64,000 nt of DNA from Phenylobacterium montanum (GTDB lineage: Bacteria > Pseudomonadota > Alphaproteobacteria > Caulobacterales > Caulobacteraceae). Positions within the stretch are counted from its first letter, which is position 1. The number at the start of each line of letters is the position of its first letter. This document shows, piece after piece, positions 24,449-62,797 of this stretch. The stretch is from contig NZ_CP073078.1 in NCBI RefSeq assembly GCF_018135625.1, forward strand, positions 2,450,501 through 2,514,500. Reading direction: 5' to 3'. Both the position numbers and the translations under genes were made by a program. The notes below the pieces were generated by a model, which ran no database searches, was not told the DNA's origin, and worked only from the letters and a program-made list of their open reading frames with translations.

Positions 24449-25327
24449 TCAAAGACGCTTGTGACCCCAGCTCGAGATCTTGTCGTGCCGGGCCATGCTC
24501 CAGATCGGCGCGTCGACTTCGATGGCGTCGTAGCCGTACTCGAGCTCGAAGCCCGACGGCGTGGAGACGTAGAAAGACACCATCTTGTCGTTGGAATGTC
24601 GGCCCAGGGTCTGGGTCAGGGTGGTGTTGGTGGAGGCTAGGCGATCGAGCGCAAAGCCAACCTGATCGAGGGTCTCCACCTGCACCATCAGGTGGTGCAG
24701 GCGCTTGGGCGGGGTCATCGGCAGGGGCGCGATGGCCAGGGTGTGGTGGCGCGGATTGCAGAAGTAGAATTCGAGGTCGATGTGGGAGTCCGGACCCATG
24801 GCCATGCGGATCATGTCTGATTGGCGGAACCCGAGCAGGTCCAGATAGAAGCCGCGGGTCGCCGCCAGGTCGACGGTGGCGAGCGCCAGATGCCCCAGGC
24901 CCTGCTGGCCAGTGACGAAGCGCGCGCCGGTTGGGGAGACGAAAGGCGAGTGGGACAGCTGGGTCGGGCCATAGTACAGTTCCACGCCAAGGCCTTGCGG
25001 GTCACGACAGCGGACCAGCCCCAGAACCCCCCGCTCCGCCAGCAGCCCGGCGTCGGCCTCCTCCACCGCCACGCCGCCCTCGACAAGCCGGCGGCGAAGC
25101 GCTGCGAGTTCGGCCGGCCCCGCCACTTCAAGGCCGATCCAGGCGAGGTCGTCCTTTTCGCCAGGTTCAAGCGCGATGCGCCAGGCATAGTCGTCAAGTC
25201 TCAGACGCTGCACGCCCCCCGGCGACGCCGGGCCCTGCATCGCCCCTAGGAACTCGCACGCCCAACTCGTCCAGGCGTCCGGATTGCTCACATTCAGGCC
25301 GAGATAGCCGAGAGCGATCACCGACAT
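24449..25327 (-). CDS. hsaC: Type I extradiol ring-cleavage dioxygenase
   Basis: This 292-residue vicinal-oxygen-chelate protein has two beta-alpha-beta-beta-beta modules. The iron ligands are H146 in GLGHLALATVDLA, a histidine in RLHHLMVQVETL (about 211-212), and a glutamate in GFELEYGYDA (about 263). It opens a catechol ring next to the hydroxyls. In the steroid pathway the substrate is 3,4-DHSA. The gene is third in the operon, between the flavin reductase component and the hydrolase. All three metal ligands are intact, so it should be active. Confidence 0.94.
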   Translation of the reverse strand: MSVIALGYLGLNVSNPDAWTSWACEFLGAMQGPASPGGVQRLRLDDYAWRIALEPGEKDDLAWIGLEVAGPAELAALRRRLVEGGVAVEEADAGLLAERGVLGLVRCRDPQGLGVELYYGPTQLSHSPFVSPTGARFVTGQQGLGHLALATVDLAATRGFYLDLLGFRQSDMIRMAMGPDSHIDLEFYFCNPRHHTLAIAPLPMTPPKRLHHLMVQVETLDQVGFALDRLASTNTTLTQTLGRHSNDKMVSFYVSTPSGFELEYGYDAIEVDAPIWSMARHDKISSWGHKRL

Positions 25328-40010: not shown

Positions 40011-40826
40011 CTACCAGGCGGTCCAGCCGCCATCGACCAGGAGATCGGCGCCGGTCATATAGGCCGAGGCGTCGCTGGCCAAGAACACGGCCGGCCCGCC
40101 GATTTCGCACCAGCGCCCTGTGCGCTCCATCGGCGTCCTCTGACCACTACGGGCGACAAAATTCGGATGGGCCTGCTCGATCTCCGGCCACGGAAACACG
40201 CCAGGACTCAATGAATTCACCCGAACGCCGTCGGGGGCGAGCCGGCAGGCGAGGTAACGGGTCAGTGCGATCATGCCGCCCTTCGACGCCGCGTATTGCG
40301 GCGGACTATCGAAGCCGGAGTCGCCATAAGTGGCGAAACTCGGGCTGCGATGGCCATAGATCGAGGCGATGTTGATCACCGAGGCCTGGCCGACAGCGCG
40401 GGCGGCGGCCTTCAGCGCAGGCAGGGCGGCTTGCACGTTCTCGTTCACCGCGGTGATTCCGCTGGCCAGGGTGGCGGCGAAGGCGTCGGCGCGACTCGCG
40501 TCGGCCGTCGTGGGCAGGCCGGTGACCGCGTTGTTGACCAGCACGTCCAGCCGCTTCAGCGTTGCGAAGAAGCTGGCCGCCGCGGCATGGTCCAGCACGT
40601 CGAAGGCGGCCACCTGGACTGACAGCCCCTCCTCAGCCAGCTCGTCCGCAAAGGCTTCGAGCTTGGCCTTGCTGCGCCCGTTCAGGATCACATGCGCCCC
40701 GGCGCGGGCCAGCGCCACCGCCATGGCCGAGCCCAGATGCCCTGCCGCGCCGGTGACCAGGGCCGTGCGCCCGGAAAGGCCGAAGATTTGGGCGTGGGTT
40801 GGAAAAGACGCCAGCCTGGGGCTCAT
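40011..40826 (-). CDS. Short-chain dehydrogenase/reductase coupled to the ACAD10/11-type dehydrogenase
   Basis: This 271-residue SDR has ALVTGAAGHLGSAMAVALARAG (cofactor), NGRSKAKLE (NADP-favouring arginine), VNNAVTG, a serine in INIASIYG and YAASKGGMIAL (YxxxK). The tail GADLLVDGGWTAW is normal. Its start overlaps the upstream acyl-CoA dehydrogenase stop by four bases (40823-40826), so the two are translated together. It may reduce a keto group or oxidise a hydroxy group of the same CoA-linked substrate. Confidence 0.9.
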   Translation of the reverse strand: MSPRLASFPTHAQIFGLSGRTALVTGAAGHLGSAMAVALARAGAHVILNGRSKAKLEAFADELAEEGLSVQVAAFDVLDHAAAASFFATLKRLDVLVNNAVTGLPTTADASRADAFAATLASGITAVNENVQAALPALKAAARAVGQASVINIASIYGHRSPSFATYGDSGFDSPPQYAASKGGMIALTRYLACRLAPDGVRVNSLSPGVFPWPEIEQAHPNFVARSGQRTPMERTGRWCEIGGPAVFLASDASAYMTGADLLVDGGWTAW

Positions 40827-42118
40827 GCCAGCTCCGCCTCGGCCATCTCTTCGAGCTCCGGATACTTCTCCATCGATCGCTCCCGCTCAGCGATCAGGTC
40901 GTAGGCCGGGAACAGAGCGTTGGTCGGCGCATAGTCGCGCAGGACCTGCTTGGCCACCGTCACCTTGTGCACCTCGGTCGGGCCGTCCGCCAGACCCATC
41001 ACGAACGACGAAACCACCTGGCTCACGAACGGCATCTCGTCGGAAACACCGATCGAGCCATGGATCTGCAGCGCCCGGGCGGCGATGTCGTGCAGGACCT
41101 TGGGCATGGCCGCCTTCACCGCGGCGATGTCCTTCCTGACCTTGCGATAGTCCTGCAGCTTGTCGATCCGCCAGGCGGTCTCCAGCACCAGAAGGCGGAA
41201 CTGTCTGAGCTCGATCCAGCTGTCGGCGATCTTCTCCTGCACCATCTGCTTGTCCGACAGCCGCTCGCCGGCGGTGAAGCGCGACAGGGCCCGTTCGCAC
41301 ATCATGTCCAGCGCCTTCTGGGCCTGGCCGATGGTGCGCATGGCGTGATGAATGCGCCCGCCGCCCAGCCGCGTCTGGGCCACCGCGAACCCTTCGCCGC
41401 GTTCGCCCAGGAGGTGATCGGCTGGGATGCGCACATTGGTGTAGCGGACATAGGCATGGCTCGGCACCTTCTCGCCGAAGTGGCCGACATTGCGCACGAT
41501 CTCGATCCCGGGCGCGTCGGCGGGGACGATGAACATCGACATGCGCCGGTGCGGCGCCGCCTCGGGATCGGTGACCGCCATCACGATCAGGAAATCGGCG
41601 AAACGCGCGTTGGACGAGAACCACTTCTCGCCATTGATCACCCAGCCCCCAGCGTCCCGCTCGGCGCGGCAGGTGAACACCAGGGGATCGGCGCCGCCGT
41701 GGGGCTCGGTCATGGAGAAGCACGAGACGATCTCGTTATCGAGCAGCGGCTTTAAGTACTTCGCCTTCTGCTCGGCCGTCCCATAGTGGGCGAGAATCTC
41801 GGCGTTGCCGGTGTCGGGGGCCTGACAGCCAAACACGACCGGGGCGAAGTGCGAGCGGCCGAGGATCTCGTTCAAGAGGGCCAGCTTGACCTGGCCGTAG
41901 CCCGGCCCGCCCAGTTCCGGGCCCAGGTGGCAGGCCCACAGGCCCTGTTCCTTCACCTGCGCCTGCAGCGGCCGGACCAGGCGGGCATTCTCCGGATTCT
42001 TGACGTCGTAGATGCTGTCCAGCCGGTGATCGAGGGGTTCGACCTCCTCCTTGACGAAGGCGGCGGCCCAGTCCAGCCGGGCTTGAAAATCGGGGTCGGT
42101 CTCAAAATCCCAGGCCAT
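40823..42118 (-). CDS. Acyl-CoA dehydrogenase of the ACAD10/ACAD11 type (LvaC-like)
   Basis: This 431-residue FAD enzyme carries the markers of the ACAD10/11 branch: APDTGNAEILAHYGTAEQK, IVSCFSMTEP, then LGGGRIHHAMRTIGQAQKALDMMCERA (about 251-277) and LADGPTEVHKVTVAKQVLRDY near the end. In mammals this domain is fused to an APH-type kinase; in bacterial levulinate operons it is separate (LvaC). There it converts a 4-phosphoacyl-CoA to an enoyl-CoA. An APH-type kinase is encoded at 56527-57603 in this same regulon. ATG 42118 with AAGGAGAGGAACGC upstream is the real start; a longer frame would run through the operator. It is divergent from the SnoaL-like gene. Confidence 0.92.
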   Translation of the reverse strand: MAWDFETDPDFQARLDWAAAFVKEEVEPLDHRLDSIYDVKNPENARLVRPLQAQVKEQGLWACHLGPELGGPGYGQVKLALLNEILGRSHFAPVVFGCQAPDTGNAEILAHYGTAEQKAKYLKPLLDNEIVSCFSMTEPHGGADPLVFTCRAERDAGGWVINGEKWFSSNARFADFLIVMAVTDPEAAPHRRMSMFIVPADAPGIEIVRNVGHFGEKVPSHAYVRYTNVRIPADHLLGERGEGFAVAQTRLGGGRIHHAMRTIGQAQKALDMMCERALSRFTAGERLSDKQMVQEKIADSWIELRQFRLLVLETAWRIDKLQDYRKVRKDIAAVKAAMPKVLHDIAARALQIHGSIGVSDEMPFVSQVVSSFVMGLADGPTEVHKVTVAKQVLRDYAPTNALFPAYDLIAERERSMEKYPELEEMAEAELA

Positions 42119-42144: not shown

Positions 42145-42167
42145 TTATGATTATGATCATGATTGTC
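42145..42167. promoter_or_regulatory. AT-rich regulon box 1 (divergent ACAD / SnoaL-like promoter)
   Basis: TTATGATTATGATCATGATTG (from 42145, written here in part as ATGATTAT-GATCATGA) lies 27 bp before the dehydrogenase start and 32 bp before the divergent gene. The ATGATTAT core recurs at four other promoters of the block. Confidence 0.6.
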
Positions 42168-42198: not shown

Positions 42199-42753
42199 AT
42201 GGACGATCACGAGAAAGCCGCCTTGCGCGCCCTCGGCGACCGGGTCGAGATCGCCGAGGTGATCATGCGCTACTGCCGGGCCATCGACCGGGGCGACGAG
42301 GCGATGCTCAGAACCTGCTTCCACCCCGATTCAACCCACCGCCACGGCGGGTTCACCGGCCCTTCCAGCGACTTCTGCGCCCACGCCATGGCCGTGGTGG
42401 CGGCCGTCGAGCTGACCCATCACCAGCTCGGCCAGATCTCGATCGACCTCGACGGCGATTTGGCCCATGCGGAGACCTACTTCACCGCCTACCATCGCTT
42501 CGGCGCAAACCCGCCCCCGGGCGGCCGCCCGCACGAAGACCGCATCGTCGGCGGCCGCTACCTCGATCGCCTGGAACGCAGAGCCGGCGCCTGGCGTATC
42601 GCCCGCCGGCATGGGGTGAGCGAGTGGCGGCGCTATGAAGCCGCCGCCGACCGCGGGTTCTTCGACGAACCGGCGGAGTGGCGGGGGCGACGGGACAAGG
42701 GGGATTCGGTGTATGTGGGGCTCAGGCGAACTGACCCTTCAACGCCCGCCTGA
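42199..42753 (+). CDS. SnoaL-like/NTF2-fold protein
   Basis: This 184-residue protein opens with DRVEIAEVIMRYCRAIDRGDEAMLRTCFHPDSTHRHGGF, the standard start of SnoaL-like (NTF2-fold) domains. Strands such as LAHAETYFTAYHRF and GRYLDRLERRAGAWRIARRHGVSEW complete the cone. Members include hydratases, isomerases, dehydratases and non-enzymatic proteins, so no reaction is assigned. ATG 42199 with GGGAGGAACCC is preferred over a start 36 bases upstream. Its end overlaps the convergent acyl-CoA ligase by 32 bases. Confidence 0.85.
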   Translation: MDDHEKAALRALGDRVEIAEVIMRYCRAIDRGDEAMLRTCFHPDSTHRHGGFTGPSSDFCAHAMAVVAAVELTHHQLGQISIDLDGDLAHAETYFTAYHRFGANPPPGGRPHEDRIVGGRYLDRLERRAGAWRIARRHGVSEWRRYEAAADRGFFDEPAEWRGRRDKGDSVYVGLRRTDPSTPA

Positions 42754-44200
42754 GCAGCTTGCCGGTCTCGTTGTAAGGCAAAGCATCCTGAAAGCGGATT
42801 TCCTCCGGCGCCTTGGTCGAGCGCAGGCGTTCGCGGACGAAAGCCTTCAAGGCTTCGGGATCGGGATCGCCCCGCGGAACGACCACGGCCACCACCCGCT
42901 CGCCCCACTGGTCGCTGGGGGCGCCCAGGACGGCGGCGTCGGCGACGGCGGGGTGGGCGCGCAGCACGTCCTCGACCTCGCCGGGGGAGATGTTCTCGCC
43001 GCCGCGCACGATCACATCGTCCAGCCGCCCCTCGAGGAACAGATAGCCGCCCGCGTCGATGAAGCCGGCGTCGCGGGTGTGAAACCAGCCCTCCGCGTCG
43101 GTCAACTTCCTGCCGACATATTCGCCGCTGATCTGGTCGCCGCGCACGCAGACCTCGCCCGAGACGCCGGCCGGGACCGGGGCGCCTGTGGGATCCCGGA
43201 TCTCGACCTCCAGACCCGGCAGGGGGCGGCCGACCGAGGACAGGCGCCTTAAGGCGACAGGATCGCCGGCGCGGGCGGCGTGGTGGTCCTCAGGGCCCAG
43301 GACCGAGATGGTCGAGCTGGTCTCGGTCAGGCCATAGGCGTTGACGAAATCGACTTGCGGCATCAGACGCAAAGCGCGCTGGATCACGGGCGGCGGCATG
43401 CGCCCGCCGCCATAGGACAGGGCCTTCAGGGCCGGCAGGGGCTCTCCCCGCGCCTCCAAGACGTCGAGGATGCGGCCCAGCATGGTCGGCACCACCATGG
43501 CGTGGGTGACGGCCTCGGCGGCGGCGGCCTCCACCCACGCCTCGGGGCTGAACGCCGGCAAATGGACGATGCGCCGCCCGGCGAAGATGTTGGTCAGGAC
43601 CGCCGAAATCCCGGCGATATGATAGGGCGGTACGCTCACCAGCGCCGCCTCGCCCTGGGCCGCGCCCATGAACTCGACGGTGGAGAGTACGTAGGCGGTC
43701 AGGTGCTCATGGCGCAGGATGGCGGCCTTGGGCTCGCCGGTGGTCCCGCTGGTGAACAGCAGGACGGCGATGTCGGGGTCGAACTCGGGCGGGGCGATGG
43801 CCTGGTTCGCGGGGTCGGCGCAAACGGCGGCGAAGGCGGCGCGCGGGACGATGGTCACGCCGGGTGCGCCCTCCACCCGCGCGATCATGTCCTCGTCGAC
43901 CACGGCGATGGAGGGGGCCGTGCGGGCCAGGATGCGCGTAAGATCGGCGTCGGCCAGGCGATAGTTCAGGGGCGCAAACGCCTTGCCGGCGAACGCGGCG
44001 GCGAAGACCAGAAGTGGCAGCGCGGGCGAATTCTGGCCGATCTGAACGACAGTTGCGCCCGGCTGGGCCGCAAGCCAGGCCCCGCCAGCCCGGGCGCGGG
44101 CCAGAAGGTCGGCATAGCTGACCGCGCTGGCCAGCGGGCCTGCCGCGTGACGCTCACCCAGGCCGTCGGCGGCCATCTCCAAGAGCAGTCCGGTGTGCAT
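42722..44200 (-). CDS. AMP-forming acyl-CoA synthetase
   Basis: This 492-residue ANL-superfamily ligase has the P-loop LLFTSGTTGEPKAAI, the A5 motif NAYGLTETSS, the hinge region GRLDDVIVRGGENISPGEVE and the catalytic lysine in NETGKLLRR. It activates a carboxylic acid with ATP and CoA and probably starts the pathway of this block. Somewhat short N-terminally (begins close to the first strand) but all motifs are present. It is the last gene of a seven-gene minus-strand operon starting at 49651. Confidence 0.92.
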   Translation of the reverse strand: MHTGLLLEMAADGLGERHAAGPLASAVSYADLLARARAGGAWLAAQPGATVVQIGQNSPALPLLVFAAAFAGKAFAPLNYRLADADLTRILARTAPSIAVVDEDMIARVEGAPGVTIVPRAAFAAVCADPANQAIAPPEFDPDIAVLLFTSGTTGEPKAAILRHEHLTAYVLSTVEFMGAAQGEAALVSVPPYHIAGISAVLTNIFAGRRIVHLPAFSPEAWVEAAAAEAVTHAMVVPTMLGRILDVLEARGEPLPALKALSYGGGRMPPPVIQRALRLMPQVDFVNAYGLTETSSTISVLGPEDHHAARAGDPVALRRLSSVGRPLPGLEVEIRDPTGAPVPAGVSGEVCVRGDQISGEYVGRKLTDAEGWFHTRDAGFIDAGGYLFLEGRLDDVIVRGGENISPGEVEDVLRAHPAVADAAVLGAPSDQWGERVVAVVVPRGDPDPEALKAFVRERLRSTKAPEEIRFQDALPYNETGKLLRRALKGQFA

Positions 44201-44202: not shown

Positions 44203-44511
44203 TCAGTCCGAAGCTGGAAGTTTCTTGGCTTCCTTGATCGTGAGCAGCCGCCCGTCGGCGGAGAAGGCTCCGCCGCCGGACTTACTGCACAGGACCTCAA
44301 GACCGCTCGTCTCGTCCGCATAGCGCTTGCCGACCGCAGCCCCGCCATCGAAGCCCTCGGCCGCCGCCAGGCCCTCAGCTCGCACGTCGGCCGCGCCCAG
44401 CATGGCTTGGCCGCCGCATTCCAGGGTCACCCCCGCGTTTGGCGGCCGCACCACCACCGCCTCGGCCGTGCAGACGGCGCTCTTCCAGCGCGATCCGGGT
44501 TTCAGGTCCAT
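44203..44511 (-). CDS. Small conserved hypothetical protein of the CoA-catabolic operon
   Basis: This 102-residue protein begins MDLKPGSRWKSAVCTAEAVVVRPP and contains ECGGQAMLG and LEVLCSKSGGGAFSADGRLLTIKEAKKLPASD, with three cysteines. Its wording resembles small proteins I recall beside acyl-CoA ligases in Actinobacteria, but no function is known to me. GGAG precedes the ATG, and it is tightly packed between the LLM oxidoreductase and the acyl-CoA ligase (two-base gap), so it is surely co-expressed. Confidence 0.75.
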   Translation of the reverse strand: MDLKPGSRWKSAVCTAEAVVVRPPNAGVTLECGGQAMLGAADVRAEGLAAAEGFDGGAAVGKRYADETSGLEVLCSKSGGGAFSADGRLLTIKEAKKLPASD

Positions 44512-44529: not shown

Positions 44530-45435
44530 TCAGACGGCCGCAAGGCCAAGGTCGCGGGCGACGCGCTCCAGGCCGGCGACCTTGTCGGCGAGGGGGATCG
44601 TGTCGTCGTTCGGCCAGATATTGGGCCCCCACAGCACCAGATTGTCGAATCCCGCGGCGAAGAAACGCTCGATCAAGTCCGGGTCGGGGCTCTGGGGCCG
44701 GACATAGTAGTCGAAGGGCCGGCGGGCCGTGCCTCGCGCCTGCCGCTCCTTCTCGATCACCTCGCGCAAGGCCTCGGCCTCGTCCAGGGCGACCATGGCC
44801 GAGTTGATCCAGGCGTCGGCCACCTCGGCCACGCGGCGCAGGGCCGGGCCGGTATTGCCGCCGCAGACCAGGGGCACCTTCACCGGGTGCGGGGTGATCT
44901 GCAGGCTATCGAAGCGGAAATGCTTGCCCTCGTGGGCGAAGAAACCGCCGGCCCAGGCCTTCTTCAGGACCTCGATGATCTCGTCGAGGCGCGAGCCGCG
45001 CTCATTGAAGGGAATGCCGACCGCATCGAACTCCTCCTTCAGCCAGCCGGCGCCGGTTCCCAGGAGGAACCGCCCGCCGGACACGTCGTGGGCGGTGGCC
45101 GTATGCCGGGCCAAGAGCAGCGGGTGGTTCATCGGCGCGATGCAGATCGCGGTGCCGATCTTGAGCCGCTTGGTCGCCCCGGCCACCGCGCCCAGGAGGA
45201 ACCAGGGGTCATAGATGCGCACCTGCTCGCCCAGGATCGCCTTGTCCCGGGCGTCGTTCTTGTCGGCGGGGGTTTCCTTGCGCGAGGGGTGATGACCGTC
45301 ATAGCGCTCGGGGATCACATAGTGTTCGCCGAACCACAGGCCCTCGAAGCCCAGCCGCTCGGCGTGGACGGCGAGATTCAAGAGGTCGGTGGGCGTGTAG
45401 TCGTAGGTGGTGATGCCGATGGTGCGCCGGGTCAC
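44530..45435 (-). CDS. Luciferase-like (LLM class) F420-dependent oxidoreductase
   Basis: This 301-residue TIM-barrel protein of the bacterial luciferase-like family resembles the F420-dependent branch. The early TIGITTYDYTPTDLLNLAVHAERLGFEGLWFGEHYVIPE is typical. So is IGTAICIAPMNHPLLLARHTATAHDVSGGRFLLGTGAGWLKEEFDAVG. FMN-dependent monooxygenases share the fold, so cofactor use is inferred. The presence of an F420 reductase/CofE fusion in the same regulon supports F420. GTG 45435 with AGGAGCCCAAA is chosen over a TTG 15 bases upstream. Expected reaction: hydride transfer to or from a C=C or C-OH of the pathway substrate. Confidence 0.88.
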   Translation of the reverse strand: MTRRTIGITTYDYTPTDLLNLAVHAERLGFEGLWFGEHYVIPERYDGHHPSRKETPADKNDARDKAILGEQVRIYDPWFLLGAVAGATKRLKIGTAICIAPMNHPLLLARHTATAHDVSGGRFLLGTGAGWLKEEFDAVGIPFNERGSRLDEIIEVLKKAWAGGFFAHEGKHFRFDSLQITPHPVKVPLVCGGNTGPALRRVAEVADAWINSAMVALDEAEALREVIEKERQARGTARRPFDYYVRPQSPDPDLIERFFAAGFDNLVLWGPNIWPNDDTIPLADKVAGLERVARDLGLAAV

Positions 45436-45499: not shown

Positions 45500-45901
45500 T
45501 CACGCCACGCGCCACTGCGGCAGCACGACGCCGGGCTCCAGGGTCTGGAACCAGACCTGCATCGGCTGGCCCTCGGCCAGCTCCGGCGCACCGTCCAGCC
45601 GGCCCATCAGCCGCACGTCCGGCGCGTCGTCCAACTGCACCACCACCAGGGTGTAGGGCGTCGGAAAGGCTGGATGCACCTGGTGCGTGACCAGGGTCCA
45701 GGTATGCAGGCGGCCGGTCCCTCTCGCCTCGCGCCAGCCGGTGTTCCAGCCGCCGCAATGGGGACAGTGCTCCGTCGGCGGGTGCAGGCCGCGGTCGCAA
45801 TCCGCGCAGGCTCTGAAGACCAGCCGCTGCTCGGCCGCGGCGGCGAAAAACCCCTCGGTCTCGCGGTCGGCGACAAAGGGCAGGATCATCTCGGCGCCCA
45901 T
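45500..45901 (-). CDS. Zn-ribbon/OB-fold (DUF35) partner protein
   Basis: This 133-residue protein has an intact rubredoxin-like zinc ribbon (CADC and CPHC, about residues 32-49) followed by an OB fold (RLHTWTLVTHQVHPAFPTPYTLVVVQLDD, then VRLMGRLDG). DUF35 proteins bind thiolase-like partners, as in the ChsH2-Ltp2 steroid aldolase. Its start overlaps the stop of the adjacent thiolase-like gene by one base, strongly implying a complex. It likely gates or shapes the acyl-CoA site. Confidence 0.9.
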   Translation of the reverse strand: MGAEMILPFVADRETEGFFAAAAEQRLVFRACADCDRGLHPPTEHCPHCGGWNTGWREARGTGRLHTWTLVTHQVHPAFPTPYTLVVVQLDDAPDVRLMGRLDGAPELAEGQPMQVWFQTLEPGVVLPQWRVA

Positions 45902-47109
45902 CACGCGGCCCTCCGGAACACGACGCTGGAGCCCACCGGCAGGGGCCCGCCGGTGCAGAGACAGAGCTCGGCCCCCTCGATCTGCATATCGGCCTCGCCG
46001 CGCAGCTGGCGCACCGCCTGGACGATGTGGTTCATGCCGTGGACATAGGCCTCGGACATGTGCCCGCCGCCGGTGTTGATCGGCAGGGAGCCGCCCCGCC
46101 TGATCGCGCCGCTCTCGACGAACGGCCCCGCCTCGCCCTTGCCGCAGAAACCGTAGGCCTCGAGCTGCAACAGCACGCTGATGGTGAAGCAGTCGTAGAT
46201 CTGGGCGATGTCCATATCCTGCGGCCCGACGCCGGCGCGCTTCCACAAGACCTCGCCGCCCTTGCGCCCGCCGAGCTCGGTCATGTCGTGGCGGGTGGTG
46301 ACCGGGAACATCATCCCGGCCCGATGGTCCTGCGGCTCCCCGCCGGCGACGGCGCGGATCAGGACCGGCGGCTTCTTAAGGTCCTTGGCCCGCTCGGCGC
46401 TGGTGATCACCACCGCGCAGGCCCCGTCCGACTCCAGGCAGAAGTCGAACAGCCGAAGCGGCGTCGAGATCATCCGCGAGGCCAGGTAATCGTCGAGGCT
46501 CATGGCCTTGTCGTGCATGATCGCGTGCGGCGTCGCATTGGCGTGCTCGCGGCAGGTCATGGCCACCGCCCCCAGCTGCGCAGGTGTGGTGCCGTATTCC
46601 AGCATGTGCCGGCGGGTCATCAGGGCGAAGGTCTGGCCAGCGGTCATCAGGCCATAAGGGACGTAGTACTCGTCATAGGTCCCGCCGCCGCCCGCCTCCT
46701 GATGCCCGGCCCGCTTGCCGCCCGAGCCCAGCCGGGTCTCGGAGCGCCCGTTCAGCGAGCGGAAAGCGATCACCGTCTTGGCCTGGCCCGACAGGATCGC
46801 CCCCATGGCCAGGCCCATCATCATGCAGGGCGCAACCCCGCCCGGCCCGGTGTCGGCCCAATAGGCCAGGTTGCTGGCGCCGAGGGCCGCGGCCAGGGTG
46901 TAGGGCGTCACCACGTCGTCGCCGCAACGGACGATGCCGTCGACGTCCTCGACGCTCAGCCCCGCCTCGGCCAGGGCCTTCAGCGAGGCCTCGGTGGCCA
47001 GGGACAGGACGCTGCGCCCGGAATTCCTGCTGAACGCCGTCTGGCCGATGCCGGCCACCGCGCACTTGTCGCGCCCCGCGAAGGCGGTCTCGTCGTCGAT
47101 CCGGCTCAT
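45901..47109 (-). CDS. Thiolase-like (SCP2/Ltp-type) acyl-CoA protein
   Basis: This 402-residue thiolase-fold protein begins CAVAGIGQTAFSRNSGRSVLSLATEASLKALAEAGLSVEDVDGIV and ends with the family's GGSLPINTGGGHMSEAYVHGMNHIVQAVRQLRG. The normal thiolase nucleophile region reads GGVAPCMMMGLAMG, and the final GHP-type motif is GHMSEAYVHG. These departures match Ltp-like members, some of which act as aldolases rather than thiolases. It overlaps the upstream CoA transferase by four bases and is followed directly by its DUF35 partner. Confidence 0.88.
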   Translation of the reverse strand: MSRIDDETAFAGRDKCAVAGIGQTAFSRNSGRSVLSLATEASLKALAEAGLSVEDVDGIVRCGDDVVTPYTLAAALGASNLAYWADTGPGGVAPCMMMGLAMGAILSGQAKTVIAFRSLNGRSETRLGSGGKRAGHQEAGGGGTYDEYYVPYGLMTAGQTFALMTRRHMLEYGTTPAQLGAVAMTCREHANATPHAIMHDKAMSLDDYLASRMISTPLRLFDFCLESDGACAVVITSAERAKDLKKPPVLIRAVAGGEPQDHRAGMMFPVTTRHDMTELGGRKGGEVLWKRAGVGPQDMDIAQIYDCFTISVLLQLEAYGFCGKGEAGPFVESGAIRRGGSLPINTGGGHMSEAYVHGMNHIVQAVRQLRGEADMQIEGAELCLCTGGPLPVGSSVVFRRAA

Positions 47110-48335
47110 GACCCGGCCTCCGATTTCAAGATCTCGGCGTTGTGCTCCCCGAGCTTGGGCGCCGGCGTGCGCGCCACCTCGCAGAAGGACGAGAAGCGGT
47201 AGATCGGCCCCGGATAGGCCACCTCGCCCACCCCCTCATGCTCGACCCTGGCGAAGAAATCGCGGGCGATCAGGTGCTCGTCGTGGAACAGGTCCTCGGG
47301 GGCGTTCAGGACCCCGATCGGCAGGCCGGCGGCCTGACCCTCGCGGTACATCTCCTCGGCCGTGTGCACCAGGAAGAAGCACTCGACCACCTCCTGCACC
47401 AGGTGGAAATTGTCCTGGCGGAACTTGACGTCCTGGTATTCCGGCTCGGTCAGCATGGCCGCCATGCCCTTGGAGTCCATCCAGTCGACCAGGCTCTTCC
47501 ACGCCTTGGGCTCGGCCAGGATCAGGGCGAAATAGACATAGCGGTCGTCGGCGCAGCGGAACAAGGCCGGCTGGGTCGGCGAGGGCTGGGCGTGGCGGCA
47601 GGTCTGCCGATGCACATGCACTCGCGGATAGAACCAGTAGGGATTGGCCAGCTCGACATTCACCGCGCAGGCCTCGTGCATGGAAATGTCCAGAAGATCG
47701 CCGCGGCCGGTCTTCTGGCGTTCCAGGAGGGCCAGCATGATCCCGATCTGCGCGAAACTGGCCACGGTATGATAGGCCTGATCGCCGCCGGGGCGGATCG
47801 GGGGGATGGTGTGGTCGTCATAGCCGCAGCTGTTCAGCGGCCCGCCGGCCGCCAGGGCCACGATGTCCGAGGACTTGTAGTCCTTCCACGGCCCGGTGAG
47901 GCCAAAAGCGGTCACCGCGGCGATGATCAGCTTCGGATGGGCCTCGAGGATCGCCTCCAGGTCCAGCCCTGCCGCCGCCAGGGCGTGGGGCTGCAGGGTG
48001 CAGATGAAGACGTCGGCGTCGGCCAGGAGGTCCTGAAGCGCCGCCAGCCCCGCCGGGGTGCGCACGTCGGCGGTGACGCTCTTCTTGTTGGAATTGTAGA
48101 ACCAGAACTTCAGGCTGGTCTCCGGCCCCTCGGCGCCCTTGGCCCAAGGGCCTGCGGCGCGGGTCGGCGAGCCTTCCGGCCCCTCCAGCTTGACCACCTC
48201 GGCGCCCAGCTGGGCCAAGAGCAGGCCGGTGAACTCCCCGCCGGGATCCTCGGCCAGCTCGACCACCTTCAGCCCGGTCAGGGGATTGGGCAGGCCCGCG
48301 GTGCGCGCGGCGAAACTCAGATGCTCGGCGCCCAT
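47106..48335 (-). CDS. CaiB/BaiF-type (family III) CoA transferase, first of pair
   Basis: This 409-residue family III CoA transferase opens with LTGLKVVELAEDPGGEFTGLLLAQLGAEVVKLEGPEG. The catalytic aspartate is in GDLLDISMHEACAVN. The usual late motifs are present (APEDLFHDEHLIARDFF). It moves CoA between carboxylic acids. ATG 48335 with AAGGAGCGCTTTGACC is chosen over a much longer start. It begins two bases after the second transferase stops, so the two probably form a heteromer or act in sequence. Confidence 0.92.
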   Translation of the reverse strand: MGAEHLSFAARTAGLPNPLTGLKVVELAEDPGGEFTGLLLAQLGAEVVKLEGPEGSPTRAAGPWAKGAEGPETSLKFWFYNSNKKSVTADVRTPAGLAALQDLLADADVFICTLQPHALAAAGLDLEAILEAHPKLIIAAVTAFGLTGPWKDYKSSDIVALAAGGPLNSCGYDDHTIPPIRPGGDQAYHTVASFAQIGIMLALLERQKTGRGDLLDISMHEACAVNVELANPYWFYPRVHVHRQTCRHAQPSPTQPALFRCADDRYVYFALILAEPKAWKSLVDWMDSKGMAAMLTEPEYQDVKFRQDNFHLVQEVVECFFLVHTAEEMYREGQAAGLPIGVLNAPEDLFHDEHLIARDFFARVEHEGVGEVAYPGPIYRFSSFCEVARTPAPKLGEHNAEILKSEAGS

Positions 48336-48337: not shown

Positions 48338-49651
48338 TCAAAGCGCTCCTTCCATCACCAGGTCCTGGTACTCGTCTTCCGCAACGCCCAGGAGCTCCTT
48401 GAACACATAGGCGTTGTCCTCGCCCAGGAGCGGGCCGGACCGCCAGTTCTCCTGCAGCGTCTCGCGGAACCGGATCGGCGTGCCCTCGAAGCGGGCCTCG
48501 CCGATCACCGGGTGATCCATCTCGAAGAACAGGCCGCGGCCGGCGATCTGCGGGTCGTGGTCGTTGGTGTCCTCGGCCGTCTGCACCGCGCCCGCGGCGA
48601 CGCCCGCGGCCTGCAGCCGGCGCATCAGGCCGTAGCGGTCCTGGCCTTTCGTCCAGTCGGCCATGTGCGCATCCAGCGCGTCCTGATTGGCGAACCGCGC
48701 CGCCTGGCTCGCAAACCGCGGATCGGCGGTCCAATCCGCCCCGATCTCGGCCGCCAGGGCCGCCCATTCAGCGTCATTGAACACCGCGATGGCGATCCAG
48801 CGGTCCTGGCCCTCACAGGGATAGACCCCGTGCGGCGCAGCGTTCGGATGCTCCAGCCGGTTGCCGGTCGGATAGTCGCCCCCGCGGGTCGAGCGGCCGT
48901 TGACCGACACCTCCAGCAAGACCGGGCCCAAAAGATTGATCCCGGCCTCCACCGCCGCCACGTCGATCTCGGCCCCCTGGCCGGTCAGGCCCCGGTGATA
49001 GATCGCGGTCAAGAGCGCCGAGGCGTTGAAGAAGGCCGCCTCGTTGTCCATGTAGCTCAGCCCCCAGCCCGAGGGCTCCTCGCCCGGCAGGCCGCTGATG
49101 TGCGAAAGCCCGCAGACAGCCTGCACCACCGGGCCATAGCTGCGGTACTCGGCATGCGGCCCCGAATGGCCGAAGCCGCTCATGCGGGCATAGATTACGT
49201 CTGGCGAGATCTGGTTCAGCCGCTCGTAGGTCAGGCCCCAGCGCTCCATCACCCCCGGCGCGAAATTCTCCGTCACCACGCTCGAGGCGGCGATCAGCCG
49301 GTCGGCCAGGGCGCGGCCCTTGGGCGAACGCATGTTGATGGTCACGCCCAGCTTGTTGCGGTTGTAGTTGTTGAACAGTCCGCCCTTGTTGGGATCGGGA
49401 TTGGCGTCCTCCTCGCCATAGGTGCGCGCCTCGCCCTTGTAGATCGGCAGGCGCCGCGGCATGTCCAGCCGGTTGCGGTCCTCGATGCGGATCACCTCTG
49501 CGCCGAAATCGGCCAACAGGCGCGTGGCGCAGGCGCCCACCCCCATCCAGCAGAAGTCGGCCACGCGCACCCCGGCCAGCGGCCCCCGCCGCGCGCCGGG
49601 CCGGCGGGACGCGCCCGCCGCCGGCAGTTTCACCCTTGTCGATTCGAGCAT
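48338..49651 (-). CDS. CaiB/BaiF-type (family III) CoA transferase, second of pair
   Basis: This 437-residue family III transferase shows GPLAGVRVADFCWMGVGACATRLLADFGAEVIRIEDR, FNNYNRNKLGVTINM and the catalytic aspartate in GAEIDVAAVEAGINL. It is the promoter-proximal gene of the minus-strand operon. ATG 49651 (AAGG eight bases upstream) was chosen; a GTG at 49717 is also in frame, so the N-terminus may be up to 22 residues longer. The AT-rich regulon box at 49746 lies 95 bp upstream. Confidence 0.92.
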   Translation of the reverse strand: MLESTRVKLPAAGASRRPGARRGPLAGVRVADFCWMGVGACATRLLADFGAEVIRIEDRNRLDMPRRLPIYKGEARTYGEEDANPDPNKGGLFNNYNRNKLGVTINMRSPKGRALADRLIAASSVVTENFAPGVMERWGLTYERLNQISPDVIYARMSGFGHSGPHAEYRSYGPVVQAVCGLSHISGLPGEEPSGWGLSYMDNEAAFFNASALLTAIYHRGLTGQGAEIDVAAVEAGINLLGPVLLEVSVNGRSTRGGDYPTGNRLEHPNAAPHGVYPCEGQDRWIAIAVFNDAEWAALAAEIGADWTADPRFASQAARFANQDALDAHMADWTKGQDRYGLMRRLQAAGVAAGAVQTAEDTNDHDPQIAGRGLFFEMDHPVIGEARFEGTPIRFRETLQENWRSGPLLGEDNAYVFKELLGVAEDEYQDLVMEGAL

Positions 49652-49745
49652 CACGCCTTGCGCACCCTCGCCGCTTCCAATGTGGCGAACCGCCGCTTCC
49701 GGCCGGTTTTCCGCCACCTCCCTAACCTGGATCAGGTCAAATCCG

Positions 49746-49765
49746 TTATAATCATTATTATGAAC
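49746..49765. promoter_or_regulatory. AT-rich regulon box 2 (CoA transferase operon / gntR promoter)
   Basis: TTATAATCATTATTATGAAC, read in reverse, contains ATAATGATTAT, the same core as boxes 1, 3 and 4. It lies between the seven-gene operon and the divergent FadR-type regulator, the expected place for autoregulation. Two ATGCTGA repeats (about 49792 and 49812) lie closer to gntR. Confidence 0.6.
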
Positions 49766-49896: not shown

Positions 49897-50694
49897 ATGC
49901 CGCTGCGTGCGAAACCGTCGTCCGCGCCGAACGAGAGCGCTTCGCAAACCACAAGGACGCCCCCCACCTTTGCGACGCCCCGCCGCGCCTCCAAGACCTC
50001 CGAGATCGTCGCCCTGGAGATCGTGCGCAACATCGTCGAGCAGGACCTCAAGCCTGGCGACCGCCTGCCGCTGGAAGCGGAGATGCTGAAGCAGTATCGC
50101 GTCAGTCGCTCGTCCCTGCGCGAGGCCCTACGCCTGCTGGAAGTCCAGGGCCTGATCGCCATCCGTCCCGGCCCTGGCGCAGGCACGGTGGTGGGCAGCG
50201 TACATCCGGGCAACCTGGCCCGGACCCTGACCCTCTACCTGCACATGGCCGGCTCGACCTACGATAAGCTCCTGGACGCCTGGATGGCGGCCGAGCCCGT
50301 GCTGGCGGGGCTGGCGGCCAAGAACCCCGACCGGGCCAAGGTGCGCGAGATGATGGGGCCCTTCGTCTCCAAGGACCACGCCGAGCACGGCAAGTGGGCC
50401 ATCGCCGAGGGCCTCGACTTTCACGACCGCATCGCCACCCTGGCCGACAATCCGGTCCTGGCCCTGGCCCTGCAGTCGATCAGCTACATCTCGACCGAGC
50501 AGGTCCTGACCAATCCCGAGCGCAGTCAGCTCGAGGAGCAGATCGTCCATGACCACAGCGAACTGGCCGAGGCGATCATCGCCGGCAAGCCGGACAAGGC
50601 GGAAAAGTTGATGGCCGAGCACATCCAACATGTGGTGGAGGACTTCAAGGCCTACTGGCCGCGGCGCGTGGGTGAGAAGATCCAGTGGCGATAG
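49897..50694 (+). CDS. FadR-subfamily GntR regulator of the catabolic block
   Basis: This 265-residue protein has a winged helix (LEIVRNIVEQDLKPGDRLPLEAEMLKQYRVSRSSLREALRLLEVQGLIAIRPGPGAGTVV). A helical FCD domain follows with DFHDRIATLADNPVLALALQSI and DHSELAEAIIAGKPDKAEKLMAEHIQHV. Its first 30 residues are Ser/Pro/Thr-rich. It is the only regulator gene between 40 and 64 kb, so it is the best candidate to bind the shared AT-rich boxes, probably with an acyl-CoA or acid effector. ATG 49897 lies 12 bases after GGAGGGGGAG; a TTG start 57 bases upstream is less likely. Its 3' end overlaps the convergent MFS gene by 50 bases. Confidence 0.9.
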   Translation: MPLRAKPSSAPNESASQTTRTPPTFATPRRASKTSEIVALEIVRNIVEQDLKPGDRLPLEAEMLKQYRVSRSSLREALRLLEVQGLIAIRPGPGAGTVVGSVHPGNLARTLTLYLHMAGSTYDKLLDAWMAAEPVLAGLAAKNPDRAKVREMMGPFVSKDHAEHGKWAIAEGLDFHDRIATLADNPVLALALQSISYISTEQVLTNPERSQLEEQIVHDHSELAEAIIAGKPDKAEKLMAEHIQHVVEDFKAYWPRRVGEKIQWR

Positions 50695-52173: not shown

Positions 52174-54480
52174 CTAGAACTTGTAGGTCAGGGTCGCGCC
52201 GATCTCGCGCGGCGGATTGACGGTGCCGCGGTCGACCTCTCGCAAGCCCGCCAAATATTCCGCCGTTTTCAAGTAGTAGAAATAGTAGTTCGACGGCGCG
52301 GTCATGAACCCGGTATTGGTCAGGTTCTTCCCCCAGATCTGCAGCTTCCACTGGCCGCCGGTCGGCTCGTAGATCAGCGAACCGTTGATCAGCCCGCGCT
52401 TCTCGGTGAAGTTCTTGGCGATCGGTTGGGCGGCGTTGACGGGACTGACCTGGGTGTGGCCCGACCATTCGCCGTCCGCATGGGCGGTCAGGTCACCCAG
52501 TCCCCCCAGGTCCCAGCGGTACTGCACAAAAAGGTGCACGTCGTTCTTGGGCACGAACGGCACGGTTCCGCCGCTGCAATTGACCCCGCCGGCCGCGCAG
52601 CCGCGGAACTGGGTGTAGATCGCTTCGGTATAGGCGTAGTTCAAGCCGATCTGCGCATTGTGGAACGGCGTCCAGGTGCTTTCGACCTCGACCCCGCGCA
52701 CGCGCTCGCTGCCGGCGTTGGTGTCAGTCAGAACCGGGCCGATCAGGGATCGCACCTGCAGGTCCTTAGTGTCTGCCTGGTAGATCGCCGTATTCAGCGA
52801 GACCCGATGGTCGAACAGCTGCACCTTGGCGCCCAGCTCATAGCTGATGCTGCGCTCGGGGTTCAGCGGGATCACCGCCTTGGCCGGGCTGGTGCTGGTC
52901 AGCGACCAGCCGCCGCCTTTGAATCCGGTCGAAGCGCTGGCGTAGAACAGCGTGTTGTGGAACGGCTTGTATTCCAGGATCGCGCGCGGGGTGAAGGCGG
53001 TCCATTCGTGCTCCATGCCCTCGGCGTTGAAGGCCGCGCCATAGAAGGCCGAGGCGCCGATGTGGTCGGTGTAGTTCTTCTTGTCTTCGTAGGTCACCCG
53101 GCCGCCGACGGTCAGGGCGACCTGGTCGGTGAAGTGGAACTTGCCTTCTGCGAACGGGGCCACGGTCAGGACGTGGGCGTCGCCGACCGCGGTCTGGTTC
53201 TGCAACGTCCCCTTGGTCAGCACCCCCAAGAACTGGCCCGGAATGGTCCCGTTGAAGCCGAAGGTGATCGCCTTCTTCAGGTTCTCGAAGCCGTAGTAGA
53301 GGCCCGCGACGTATTCCAGCCGCCGCCCGGTGGGCGAGGTCAGGCGGAATTCCTGGCTGAATTCGAACTCGCGGCTGGCGTTGATGCTGTTGTTGTTGGC
53401 CGGCAGCGGGCCGCTGTCGCCGTCGTCGACATATTTGGCGTCCAGCGAGCGGTAGCTGGTGATCGAGGTCAGATCGCCGAACGAATGGCTCCAGTCGGCG
53501 CGGACCTGGGCGGCGAAGATGTCCCGCTTGTTGGTCCCGTCCACGTCCTGGAAGCTGGCCCAGGGGCTGGTCGAGATCGCCTGGGCGGCGGCGACCACCG
53601 AGCCCTGGCCGAAGAAGTGATAGCCGGCCGCCGCCTCGTCCTCGTGGATGTAGGAGACCATGGCCTGGAGCTTCAGGTCGTCTGTCGGCCGCCACAGGAA
53701 GGTCGGGCGGATGGCGAAGCTCTTCTGGTCGCTGAGATTATGGCCGGTGACATAGTTGTGCATGTACCCGCCGACATCCTTGACGCTGTAGGCGAGGCGC
53801 GCGGCGGCGTCGGGGCTGACGGCCAGGTTGAAGAAGCCCTGGGTCTCGAAGCCCGGTGAATCCGGCACGCCCGACCCGGTATAGGTCTCGACCGTCAGGT
53901 TGGTCTCACCGCCGGTCTGGCCCAGCTTGGGCATGTTGTCGGTGATCTGCAGCGCCCCGCCGACCACGTTGCGGCCGAAGGTGGTGCCCTGCGGGCCGCG
54001 CAGCACGGCGATCTGGCTGACGTCGAAGAAGTCGGCGTCGAACGAGGCCAGGGTGCCGTAGTAGATGTCGTCGATGAACACCGCCACCGGCAGCTCCAGC
54101 GCCGGGGCGTCGTTGGTGGTGGTCTGGCCGCGGATCTGCAGGTTGGCCGTGCTCGGCCCCTTGGTGGAGACGAAGGTCGCGCCGGGCACCATGGCCGGCA
54201 GGTCGACGAAGTTGCCGATATGGGCCTCCTGGACCACCTTGCCGGACATCGCCGTCACGGCGATCGGCACCCGGCTCAGCGCTTCCTCGCGCCGGGTCGC
54301 GGTGACCACGATCTCGCCGGCCGTCTCGGTTGGAGCCGCAGCGGGCGCCGGGGCGGCGGCCTGCTGCGCCTGAGCGAGGCCCGGCGCGACGCCGAGACCA
54401 GCCGCCAAGCCCAGCACGGCCAGGGCGGCGCCACCGCGCACGCCGCGCTCGGCCACAAATTGTTTCCGTCGATCGGTCAT
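52174..54480 (-). CDS. TonB-dependent outer-membrane receptor (catabolic block)
   Basis: This 768-residue receptor has a signal peptide (GAALAVLGLAAGLGVAPGLAQAQ). A TonB-box-like GEIVVTATRREEALSRVPIAVTAMSG follows, then a plug with LQIRGQTTTNDAP and IAVLRGPQGTTFGRNVVGGALQI. A beta-barrel ends GATLTYKF. This plug form (LRGPQGTxFGRN) is typical of receptors associated in sphingomonads and Caulobacteraceae with hydrophobic or small organic substrates, different from the large sugar receptor at 303-3665. ATG 54480 follows GGGGGAACGGC. The regulon box lies 161 bp upstream. Confidence 0.94.
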   Translation of the reverse strand: MTDRRKQFVAERGVRGGAALAVLGLAAGLGVAPGLAQAQQAAAPAPAAAPTETAGEIVVTATRREEALSRVPIAVTAMSGKVVQEAHIGNFVDLPAMVPGATFVSTKGPSTANLQIRGQTTTNDAPALELPVAVFIDDIYYGTLASFDADFFDVSQIAVLRGPQGTTFGRNVVGGALQITDNMPKLGQTGGETNLTVETYTGSGVPDSPGFETQGFFNLAVSPDAAARLAYSVKDVGGYMHNYVTGHNLSDQKSFAIRPTFLWRPTDDLKLQAMVSYIHEDEAAAGYHFFGQGSVVAAAQAISTSPWASFQDVDGTNKRDIFAAQVRADWSHSFGDLTSITSYRSLDAKYVDDGDSGPLPANNNSINASREFEFSQEFRLTSPTGRRLEYVAGLYYGFENLKKAITFGFNGTIPGQFLGVLTKGTLQNQTAVGDAHVLTVAPFAEGKFHFTDQVALTVGGRVTYEDKKNYTDHIGASAFYGAAFNAEGMEHEWTAFTPRAILEYKPFHNTLFYASASTGFKGGGWSLTSTSPAKAVIPLNPERSISYELGAKVQLFDHRVSLNTAIYQADTKDLQVRSLIGPVLTDTNAGSERVRGVEVESTWTPFHNAQIGLNYAYTEAIYTQFRGCAAGGVNCSGGTVPFVPKNDVHLFVQYRWDLGGLGDLTAHADGEWSGHTQVSPVNAAQPIAKNFTEKRGLINGSLIYEPTGGQWKLQIWGKNLTNTGFMTAPSNYYFYYLKTAEYLAGLREVDRGTVNPPREIGATLTYKF

Positions 54481-54640: not shown

Positions 54641-54688
54641 ATGATTATCGTTGTTATTATTCTCGCATAATCATCATCATGATTATGC
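54641..54688. promoter_or_regulatory. AT-rich regulon box 3 (TonB receptor promoter), double site
   Basis: ATGATTAT occurs at 54641-54648 and again within ATAATCATCATCATGATTAT at 54667-54686. The second part has a copy on both strands. It is the longest such site in the window and lies directly behind the SDR stop, upstream of the receptor gene. Confidence 0.6.
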
Positions 54689-60971: not shown

Positions 60972-62114
60972 TCAGGCTTCCAAGATCGCCACGGCCGAGA
61001 TGCCGGGCGCGCCATAGACCTGGCTGTAGCCGATGCGGGCGCCCTCGACCTGGCGGCCCTCCGCCCGGCCCCTCAGCTGCTGCACGTTCTCATAGACCTG
61101 GCGCAGGCCGGATGCGCCGATCGGCTCGCCGCAGGCCAGGCACCCGCCGTCGGTGTTCACCGGCAAGCGCCCGCCGATGCGGGTGGCGCCCTGGTGAATC
61201 AGCTTCTCCTGCTCGCCGTGCGCGCAAAAGCCGTTCTCGGCCATGTGCATGACCTCGGCCCCGCTCTCGGTGTCCTGGATCTGGGCCACGTCCACGTCGC
61301 CGGGGCCCAGCCCCGCCATCTCGAAGGCGGCCTTGGAGGCGATCTCGGTCGGCGAGGGCCCCCGCTCGATCTCCAGCGACGGCGAGAACACCTCGAACGA
61401 GCCTGCGACCCGCGTGCGCACCGCGGCGCTGCGCATCTTCGGCCCTTTCAGGCCCAGCTCGCGCATCTTGCGCTCGGAGGCCAGCACCATGGCCGTGCCG
61501 CCCTCGGCCGGCGAGCAGAACATGAACTTGGTCAGGGGGTCCGAGACCATCTCGCTGGAGAGGATGTGGTTCAGCCCCACCGGCTCGCGCCGCCAGGCGT
61601 GCGGCGCCTTGGCCCCGTTCTCGAACGCCTTCTCCGCCACCATCCCCAGGGTCTCGGCGGTGACGCCGTAAAGGCTCATATAGCGCTGGATCTTCATGGC
61701 GAAGAATTGGGTGGTCAGCATCATCCCCGCCTCGCCGTACCAGCGCGGCAGGCCCGAGGCCTCGGGGTCGGCGTTGAAGGCGCCGCGCGGATGCTTGTCG
61801 AACCCGACCACGACGCCGAGGTCGAACTCGCCCGACTTGATCGCCCAGTAACCGGACAAGAGCGCCGAGCCGCCAGTGGCGCAGCCGTTGGCGACATTGA
61901 TGAACTGCACCCCGGTCAGGCCCAGCCGCGGCAGGAGGGCGTCCGCATTGCCCGAGGCCGAGGAGCCGCCGAAGGCGAACTGGATGTCGCTCCAGGCCAC
62001 CCCCGCATCGGCCAGCGCCTCCTGAACGGCGAACAGGCCCTGGTCGAGTCCGGTCCTGCCGTCGTGCCGGCCGAAGGGGTGGATGCCCGCGCCGATGATA
62101 TGGACGTCGCCCAT
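60972..62114 (-). CDS. Thiolase family protein (SCP2-type) with cysteine nucleophile motif
   Basis: This 380-residue thiolase-fold protein has the nucleophile-like cysteine in NVANGCATGGSALLSG. The late motif reads NTDGGCLACGEPIGASGLRQVYENVQQLRG, where the usual GHP is GEP. ADVDVAQIQDTESG-like wording (VDVAQIQDTESGAEVM) and LPVNTDGG match lipid-transfer-type thiolases. Unlike the thiolase at 45901, the active cysteine region is conventional, so true thiolytic activity is plausible. Its partner OB-fold gene begins just upstream. Confidence 0.9.
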   Translation of the reverse strand: MGDVHIIGAGIHPFGRHDGRTGLDQGLFAVQEALADAGVAWSDIQFAFGGSSASGNADALLPRLGLTGVQFINVANGCATGGSALLSGYWAIKSGEFDLGVVVGFDKHPRGAFNADPEASGLPRWYGEAGMMLTTQFFAMKIQRYMSLYGVTAETLGMVAEKAFENGAKAPHAWRREPVGLNHILSSEMVSDPLTKFMFCSPAEGGTAMVLASERKMRELGLKGPKMRSAAVRTRVAGSFEVFSPSLEIERGPSPTEIASKAAFEMAGLGPGDVDVAQIQDTESGAEVMHMAENGFCAHGEQEKLIHQGATRIGGRLPVNTDGGCLACGEPIGASGLRQVYENVQQLRGRAEGRQVEGARIGYSQVYGAPGISAVAILEA

Positions 62115-62154: not shown

Positions 62155-62565
62155 TCAGGCCGGCTCGAAGCCGTAGAGCATCACCGCCGTTCCGTCGGGA
62201 TCCTGGCGGAAGGGGATCAGGGTGAAGCGCACCGGCATGCCGATCTTCAGCGCCGAGAGGTCGTCGGTCTTGATGTGGCTCTCGACGATGATCTGGCCGG
62301 GCAGCTCCACATAGCCGACGGCGTAGGGCTCGAACGGCGCCGTATCGCCGGCGCCGAGATAGGGCGTCTTGGGCCGGAAGCGCTGGACCGTGTAGGACCA
62401 GAGCCTCCCCTCTGAGGCCAGCTCGACCGGCTCGTAGTCTTCGCCCTGCGCCCCTTGCGGCAAGGGAAAGGCCAGCTTGCCATCGCCCTTGCGCCGCCCG
62501 CCCAGCAAATGCGGAACGCCATCGACCTTGCGATAGAGCCCCTCCGCTAAAGGCCTGCAATTCAT
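62155..62565 (-). CDS. OB-fold (DUF35-type) partner lacking the zinc-ribbon cysteines
   Basis: This 136-residue protein has the OB-fold part of DUF35 proteins (GRLWSYTVQRFRPKTPYL, FEPYAVGYVELPGQIIVESHI, IGMPVRFTLIPF). Where the four zinc-binding cysteines should stand it reads VPHLLGGRRKGDGKLAFP, without cysteine. Only one cysteine (C3) exists in the protein. It still sits next to a thiolase-like gene, 40 bases upstream, so it probably binds that partner without zinc. ATG 62565 with GAGGAAACA is preferred over an earlier start. Confidence 0.83.
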   Translation of the reverse strand: MNCRPLAEGLYRKVDGVPHLLGGRRKGDGKLAFPLPQGAQGEDYEPVELASEGRLWSYTVQRFRPKTPYLGAGDTAPFEPYAVGYVELPGQIIVESHIKTDDLSALKIGMPVRFTLIPFRQDPDGTAVMLYGFEPA

Positions 62566-62637: not shown

Positions 62638-62655
62638 TGATCATAATTATCATCA
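62638..62655. promoter_or_regulatory. AT-rich regulon box 5 (thiolase/ACAD operon and npdG-cofE promoter)
   Basis: TGATCATAATTATCATCA is a close variant of boxes 1-4; its reverse reads TGATGATAATTATGATCA, sharing GATGAT and ATTATGATCA with box 1. It lies 73 bp before the OB-fold gene and 143 bp before the divergent npdG-cofE gene. Confidence 0.5.
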
Positions 62656-62797
62656 GAGTCTATAGTCATTCGACCTCACCGGCGAAAGCGGGATCAGGGC
62701 GGCGCAGATCGCCCCTCACGACCGAGCCGGCATTTCCGATAGACACGAGCCCCGCAAAGAGGCTGGCTGGGGCCGCAATCCTTGGGTGGAGCGCCGC

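Follow-up and report, generated by a model that had tools for sequence, protein, structure and literature searches.

The 64,000-nt stretch of the Phenylobacterium montanum genome analysed here (GCF_018135625.1, NZ_CP073078.1:2,450,501-2,514,500; hereafter the window) houses a luciferase-like (LLM) oxidoreductase of a curated F420-dependent subfamily, encoded in what is apparently a catabolic operon, and the same sequence box lies upstream of this operon and of genes for assembly of the F420 tail and reduction of F420. A search of the genome for an FO synthase (FbiC/CofGH) found none. We favour, and regard as reasonably likely, the interpretation that these genes serve a catabolic step which is inducible, depends on F420 and is supplied with scavenged FO. 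The genes of the presumed catabolic module and regulon are as follows:

48338..49717, minus strand: class III (CaiB/BaiF) CoA-transferase, first gene of the LLM operon (Pfam PF02515)
47106..48335, minus strand: class III (CaiB/BaiF) CoA-transferase, second operon gene (PF02515 on 47106-48326; ATG three codons upstream of 48326)
45901..47109, minus strand: thiolase/lipid-transfer-protein family (NCBIfam PRK07855, 407 bits, under the cut-off of 469)
45500..45901, minus strand: DUF35/ChsH2-C OB-fold protein, probable thiolase partner (PF01796, PF12172)
44530..45435, minus strand: LLM (luciferase-like) oxidoreductase, TIGR03619 subfamily (301 aa; Pfam and NCBIfam profiles, AlphaFold model)
44203..44511, minus strand: 102-aa conserved protein of the LLM operon (0 families in NCBIfam and Pfam)
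42722..44200, minus strand: AMP-forming acyl-CoA ligase, last operon gene (PF00501)
40823..42118, minus strand: acyl-CoA dehydrogenase of the presumed regulon (Pfam Acyl-CoA_dh)
40011..40826, minus strand: SDR dehydrogenase following the acyl-CoA dehydrogenase (Pfam adh_short_C2)
49897..50694, plus strand: GntR/FCD regulator, divergent from the LLM operon (PF00392, PF07729)
52174..54480, minus strand: TonB-dependent receptor, start approximate (PF00593)
60972..62114, minus strand: second thiolase/lipid-transfer protein of the module (profile search)
62155..62559, minus strand: second DUF35 OB-fold protein, divergent from npdG-cofE (PF01796)

The LLM open reading frame runs from a GTG start codon at 45435, six bases after AGGAG, to a stop at 44530, and its product matches the Pfam Bac_luciferase profile (PF00296) with 170.1 bits, so that the LLM gene originally predicted from the DNA letters is a real one. 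The predicted resemblance to the F420-dependent branch was also borne out: with 197.3 bits over profile positions 3-244 of 247, the protein passes the cut-off of 166.9 set for TIGR03619 ('F420-dependent LLM class oxidoreductase'), a subfamily that we take to be almost confined to genomes with F420 genes. The other 24 NCBIfam matches listed (31 families matched) all lie under their own cut-offs; among the models not passed are those of the FMN-type enzymes SsuD (TIGR03565, 42.3 against 518.2 bits) and RutA (TIGR03612, 51.4 against 498.3), and the SfnG and luciferase models, whose cut-offs are far above the score of the LLM protein. The host genome (5.65 Mb in two contigs, 99.32% complete) has eight LLM genes, and among the matches listed (E <= 1e-20) none of the other seven exceeds the cut-off of any F420 subfamily; one is over that for MsnO8. 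The LLM enzyme, the one among the eight found over such a cut-off, is thus the expected one if the genome encodes any F420-dependent LLM at all.

Seven genes on the same strand (CaiB, CaiB, thiolase, DUF35, LLM, 102-aa protein and AMP-ligase) either overlap or lie 2-64 bases apart, and from this tight spacing the operon that had been predicted around the LLM gene may be accepted as probable. The gene content suggests that the pathway degrades a branched or cyclic acid by beta-oxidation, CoA transfer being involved. The 102-aa protein has an LPxSD end and two cysteines that are invariant across seven aligned copies, and orthologues are found at six loci of relatives (L014-L019) and in Rhodococcus operons (L222-L224); a model of it (pLDDT 77, seven sequences) gave no match to a solved structure at E <= 0.001. 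Elsewhere in the window, at 20821-25327, a meta-cleavage-like set was recognised by eye, comprising an aldolase, an acetaldehyde dehydrogenase, a hydratase, an alpha/beta hydrolase and an extradiol dioxygenase.

Among 84,980 species genomes scanned, 326 relatives of the LLM protein were found, and the best 80 were examined. Eight orthologues, at 50-76% identity, stand out among these 80, the rest having at most 43%. The operon is kept from CaiB to ligase in six of the eight orthologue loci, and the thiolase-DUF35-LLM portion in all eight; all eight genomes also have cofE and CofH over cut-off, the base rate for cofE in the class being 58/387. In the family, 369 genomes were surveyed: 24 have cofE (23 of them over cut-off), 22 have an LLM homologue at E <= 1e-20, and 20 have both, so that a homologue accompanies cofE in 20/24 genomes as against 2/345 of the others (Fisher p 4.5e-27, relatedness not corrected for). 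The two genomes with such an LLM and no cofE are G363 (89% complete, 7% contamination) and G392 (82%), and the four with cofE and no such LLM are G070, G312, G394 and G398. The LLM and cofE genes are separated by 18-19 kb in the relatives G346 and G242 and are on different large contigs in G067; Caulobacter ginsengisoli DSM 18695 has both the module and the F420 genes, including CofH.

The module also occurs, in compact form, on plasmids of Rhodococcus sp. DMU1, R. opacus and R. koreensis (loci within L221-L224). Identity to the window is 55-67% for both CaiB genes, 63-65% for the acyl-CoA dehydrogenase, 54-58% for the ligase, 49-52% for the 102-aa protein, 39-40% for the LLM protein and 29-30% for a phosphotransferase. 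Two thiolase/DUF35 pairs are again present (thiolases 50-62%, DUF35 proteins 40-43%), the counterpart of the second thiolase (60972..62114) being 60-62% identical. Both of the Rhodococcus LLM proteins that were scored, out of three, are over the TIGR03619 cut-off. The DMU1 stretch additionally carries a P450, a ferredoxin and a mycofactocin-coupled SDR.

An AlphaFold model of the LLM protein (pLDDT 92.5, pTM 0.90) matches Mer (F420) with Z 27.6, luciferase (FMN) with 27.1 and FGD1 (F420) with 26.2, F420 and FMN enzymes being interleaved within about 1.5 Z; with the scores tied in this way, fold was dropped as a test of the cofactor. A search of PDB sequences with the single LLM sequence puts luciferase first (75.5 bits, against 56 for Mer), and a profile of 66 rows places Mer (135 bits) slightly above luciferase (131). 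A tree was built of 37 rows, comprising 28 homologous proteins and nine other LLMs, among them E. coli SsuD, RutA and LLMs of the same genome. In it the LLM protein of the window, the eight orthologues and the three Rhodococcus proteins form one clade (100/99), and the clustering with FMN monooxygenases for which the original prediction had proposed to look was not seen: the 28 rows stand apart from SsuD, RutA and the other LLMs of the same genome, with moderate support (88/65) and long branches among these nine. It might still be argued that the enzyme is an FMN-dependent monooxygenase whose gene company is coincidental, the superfamily being mixed, its fold scores tied with those of an FMN luciferase and luciferase leading the single-sequence search; yet the enzyme belongs to a curated F420 subfamily, its homologues closely track cofE, its operon shares the box described below, and it separates from SsuD and RutA on the tree, all of which makes this very improbable. 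The subfamily score, the phylogenetic profile, the shared box and the conserved operon together indicate that the LLM enzyme is very probably F420-dependent.

The F420 genes begin, within the window, with a fused gene:

62786..64237, plus strand, extending past the window end at 64000 (L009:487-1938): npdG-cofE fusion, F420:NADPH oxidoreductase and F420-0:glutamate ligase (TIGR01915, TIGR01916)

This single open reading frame of 483 aa exceeds the cut-offs in both its NpdG part (TIGR01915, 164.3 against 149.8 bits) and its CofE part (TIGR01916, 253.2 against 180.65). Such a fusion was seen in 9/27 loci examined. Just beyond the window end lie cofD (293.3 against 257.45 bits) and cofC (167 against 105), both likewise over cut-off, and cofC is overlapped by 4 bases by a conserved gene that follows it, neither of the two being visibly shortened. 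A DUF2889 label for this conserved gene was dropped, Pfam having assigned no family. CofE keeps 43/43 and CofD 69/70 of the residues that are invariant in FbiC-positive genomes (G199 was left out of these counts, and no CofD turned up at the locus in G398), and the tail-building enzymes therefore look functional. In G199 itself (99% complete, single contig) cofE is in two pieces, both under cut-off, at G199:C1:2479180-2479925, possibly through a frameshift. By homology, the local F420 genes would be able to build the cofactor tail and reduce the cofactor, but not to make its redox core. The prediction that the LLM enzyme is served by the F420 system 17 kb away thus stands in part: npdG-cofE lies 17.4 kb from the LLM gene and cofD and cofC are intact, but a search of the whole genome failed to reveal an FO synthase.

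The box, an ATN repeat with the pattern ATNATNATNATNAT, has seven overlapping matches in the 64 kb, at the four sites 42147, 49748, 54667 and 62640, where dinucleotide-preserving shuffles give an expectation of 0.01:

49747..49761, no strand: ATN-repeat box upstream of the LLM operon (pattern search)
62639..62656, no strand: ATN-repeat box between DUF35 (minus) and npdG-cofE (plus) (pattern search)
42146..42163, no strand: ATN-repeat box upstream of the acyl-CoA dehydrogenase/SDR unit (pattern search)
54666..54686, no strand: ATN-repeat box upstream of the TonB receptor (pattern search)

The promoter box that had been claimed to be common to the LLM operon and npdG-cofE is accordingly genuine. 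The exact box is contained in 17/226 loci: it precedes the leading gene of the operon in L014-L019, TonB orthologues in L016, L017, L018, L020 and L021, and npdG in L009/L011, L099/L117, L100/L120 and L101 (paired names denoting the same place), and it occurs also in L068 and L083, which are loci of distant LLM homologues. The window genome and three of the eight orthologue genomes (L016 with L099, L018 with L100, L017 with L101) have it at npdG as well as at the LLM operon. In the other five relatives (L096, L097, L098, L102 and L103) the stretch before npdG lacks the exact box, a similar AT-rich sequence being present there in L102 and L103, and for this reason confidence in co-regulation was lowered slightly; the box near npdG-cofE may instead serve the divergent DUF35 gene. 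With these reservations, the pattern points to the LLM operon and the F420 operon being probably co-regulated. A GntR/FCD homologue adjoins the operon in all eight orthologue loci, and the divergent GntR/FCD protein is the candidate regulator, most likely the one that would read the box.

The search for an FO synthase covered the whole genome. CofH (TIGR03551) gave no match in three profile searches, and the sole match to CofG (TIGR03550), at 22.5 bits, is in fact the biotin synthase BioB, which scores 398 bits against its own profile (cut-off 225); recovery of BioB by the CofG model implies that the search can see radical-SAM enzymes in this genome. With FbiC from one relative (L109) as query, which gave 1031 bits at the control locus, no piece of the gene was found in the window and the 35 kb beyond it (best E 0.17), stretches that contain no N. 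The CofG model was applied to genomes G000 and G031, and the other FbiC-less genomes were tested with CofH alone. In three of 13 FbiC-positive genomes (L107, L109 and L112) fbiC lies directly before the conserved gene that follows cofC in the window genome, and cofC precedes fbiC in L107 and L109, the two in which the contig shows it. In the other ten, which include the nearest relative on the CofE tree (G375), fbiC does not have this gene as a neighbour in the stretch examined. The simplest reading, not the only one, is that fbiC was cleanly lost from an order cofC-fbiC-conserved gene.

The window genome is not alone in this. CofH is over cut-off in 16 of the 24 cofE-positive genomes of the family and without a match in eight, namely the window genome, G031 and all six cofE-positive members of genus g21 (G068, G070, G077, G079, G080 and G081); these eight genomes are 83-99% complete. 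An LLM gene adjoins F420 genes in G068, G079 and G031. On a CofE tree of 27 rows, from which G199 was left out and to which four outside genomes were added, the distribution of CofH needs five changes, four of them forced by well-supported branches, and the window genome falls inside an otherwise FbiC-positive group. In a class-wide sample, cofE was over cut-off in 58/387 genomes and CofH in 55 of these 58, that is, in 55 of the 57 others beside the window genome; the exceptions are G723 (a partial match of 316 bits), G568 (28.8 bits) and the window genome, with no match.

It might be supposed from the failure to find an FO synthase that the system is decaying, fbiC having been lost and the LLM and remaining F420 genes persisting as relics without a cofactor. 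We consider this unlikely: npdG-cofE, cofD, cofC and the LLM gene are of full length and over curated cut-offs, the invariant residues of CofE and CofD are kept, and the box is retained. Moreover, CofH is missing from seven other genomes of the family, six of them in one genus, and npdG, cofE, cofD and cofC lie together at four of these seven CofH-less loci, the other three not having all four on the contig. The strain might alternatively make its own FO, either because fbiC sits on a replicon that the assembly lacks or through an unrecognised FO enzyme. The assembly could indeed lack a plasmid, and its completeness is 99.32% rather than 100%; but it consists of two contigs, the junction between cofC and the conserved gene is a tight one of 4 bases, and the same absence of CofH recurs in seven other genomes, including 6/6 cofE-positive members of one genus, so that own synthesis appears decidedly unlikely.

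We return to the reading of an inducible catabolic step fed from outside. The LLM enzyme would be an F420-dependent luciferase-like hydride transferase, putatively responsible for one redox reaction in a pathway of acyl-CoA catabolism that would comprise two CaiB CoA-transferases, two thiolase/DUF35 pairs, acyl-CoA dehydrogenases, a ligase and SDRs. The pathway operon, the outer-membrane receptor and the genes for F420 tail assembly and reduction would be induced jointly via one ATN-repeat operator. NpdG would use NADPH to provide F420H2, which the LLM enzyme would consume, unless it acts in the other direction and reduces F420. FO would enter the cell and be trapped by CofC, CofD and CofE as charged F420; it is proposed to come from outside because no FO synthase was found in the genome. 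In a 2021 review, FO is described as uncharged, diffusing readily across membranes and lost from cells, while the phospho-carboxylic acid group of F420-0 prevents membrane diffusion; FO can also serve F420-dependent enzymes in vitro (PMC8498797). Since FO diffuses and charged F420-0 does not, CofC, CofD and CofE could trap the FO of neighbours. No FO importer was identified, and for import of FO taken by itself the chances appear evenly balanced.

More tentatively, and with slightly less assurance, it may be suggested that the Caulobacteraceae hold FO-scavenging users of F420, in which FO synthase would have been lost repeatedly while CofC, CofD, CofE, NpdG and F420-dependent LLMs were kept. 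Catabolism would then depend on a deazaflavin core leaking from neighbouring cells, which would be a common good akin to a vitamin, and tail assembly would be induced along with the pathway. Among literature titles and the openings of abstracts, FbiC-less F420 pathways or FO salvage were not found, which is not to claim their absence from print; the nearest report appears to concern an endosymbiont deazaflavin acting on its fungal host (PMC11104420). The 2021 review states that the role of F420 in bacteria outside the Actinobacteria had not yet been addressed by any experimental study, and counts the reason why Proteobacteria make F420 among the unanswered questions (PMC8498797). The placing of F420 assembly and one catabolic module under a common probable operator offers a directly testable role for F420. 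If FO is indeed scavenged, F420 would join the cofactors traded among bacteria, and its use would no longer be predictable from the presence of FO synthase.

Compared with known systems, the window genome shares intact cofC, cofD, cofE and npdG with Proteobacterial F420 operons (fbiC, cofC, cofD, cofE, npdG), but it has no detectable FO synthase and its npdG is fused to cofE. The catabolic module resembles the bbs (benzylsuccinate) beta-oxidation set in its paired CaiB genes, acyl-CoA dehydrogenase, SDRs and thiolase with DUF35, and differs from it in having an extra F420 enzyme. A bbs-like pathway as such was rejected, the two thiolases scoring 105 and 152.8 bits against a BbsB cut-off of 750. 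A further likeness is to Rv3520c-Rv3521-ltp4 of M. tuberculosis, in which we take Rv3521 to be DUF35-like. In a table of cholesterol catabolism genes, the neighbours listed for an F420-dependent oxidoreductase are a thiolase and a conserved hypothetical protein, and that part of the table contains no CoA-transferase pair (PMC6429209). The LLM protein nevertheless differs from the subfamily of Rv3520c, TIGR03559, against which it scores 49.3 bits (cut-off 335). It belongs by curated cut-off to the TIGR03619 family (Rv2161c type), which is passed also by the orthologues L018, L019 and L020, by two Rhodococcus counterparts and by the more distant L022 and L095; a characterised member was not found among the matches listed. 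Within this family, the orthologue group of the LLM protein is set apart by its own conserved operon and box.
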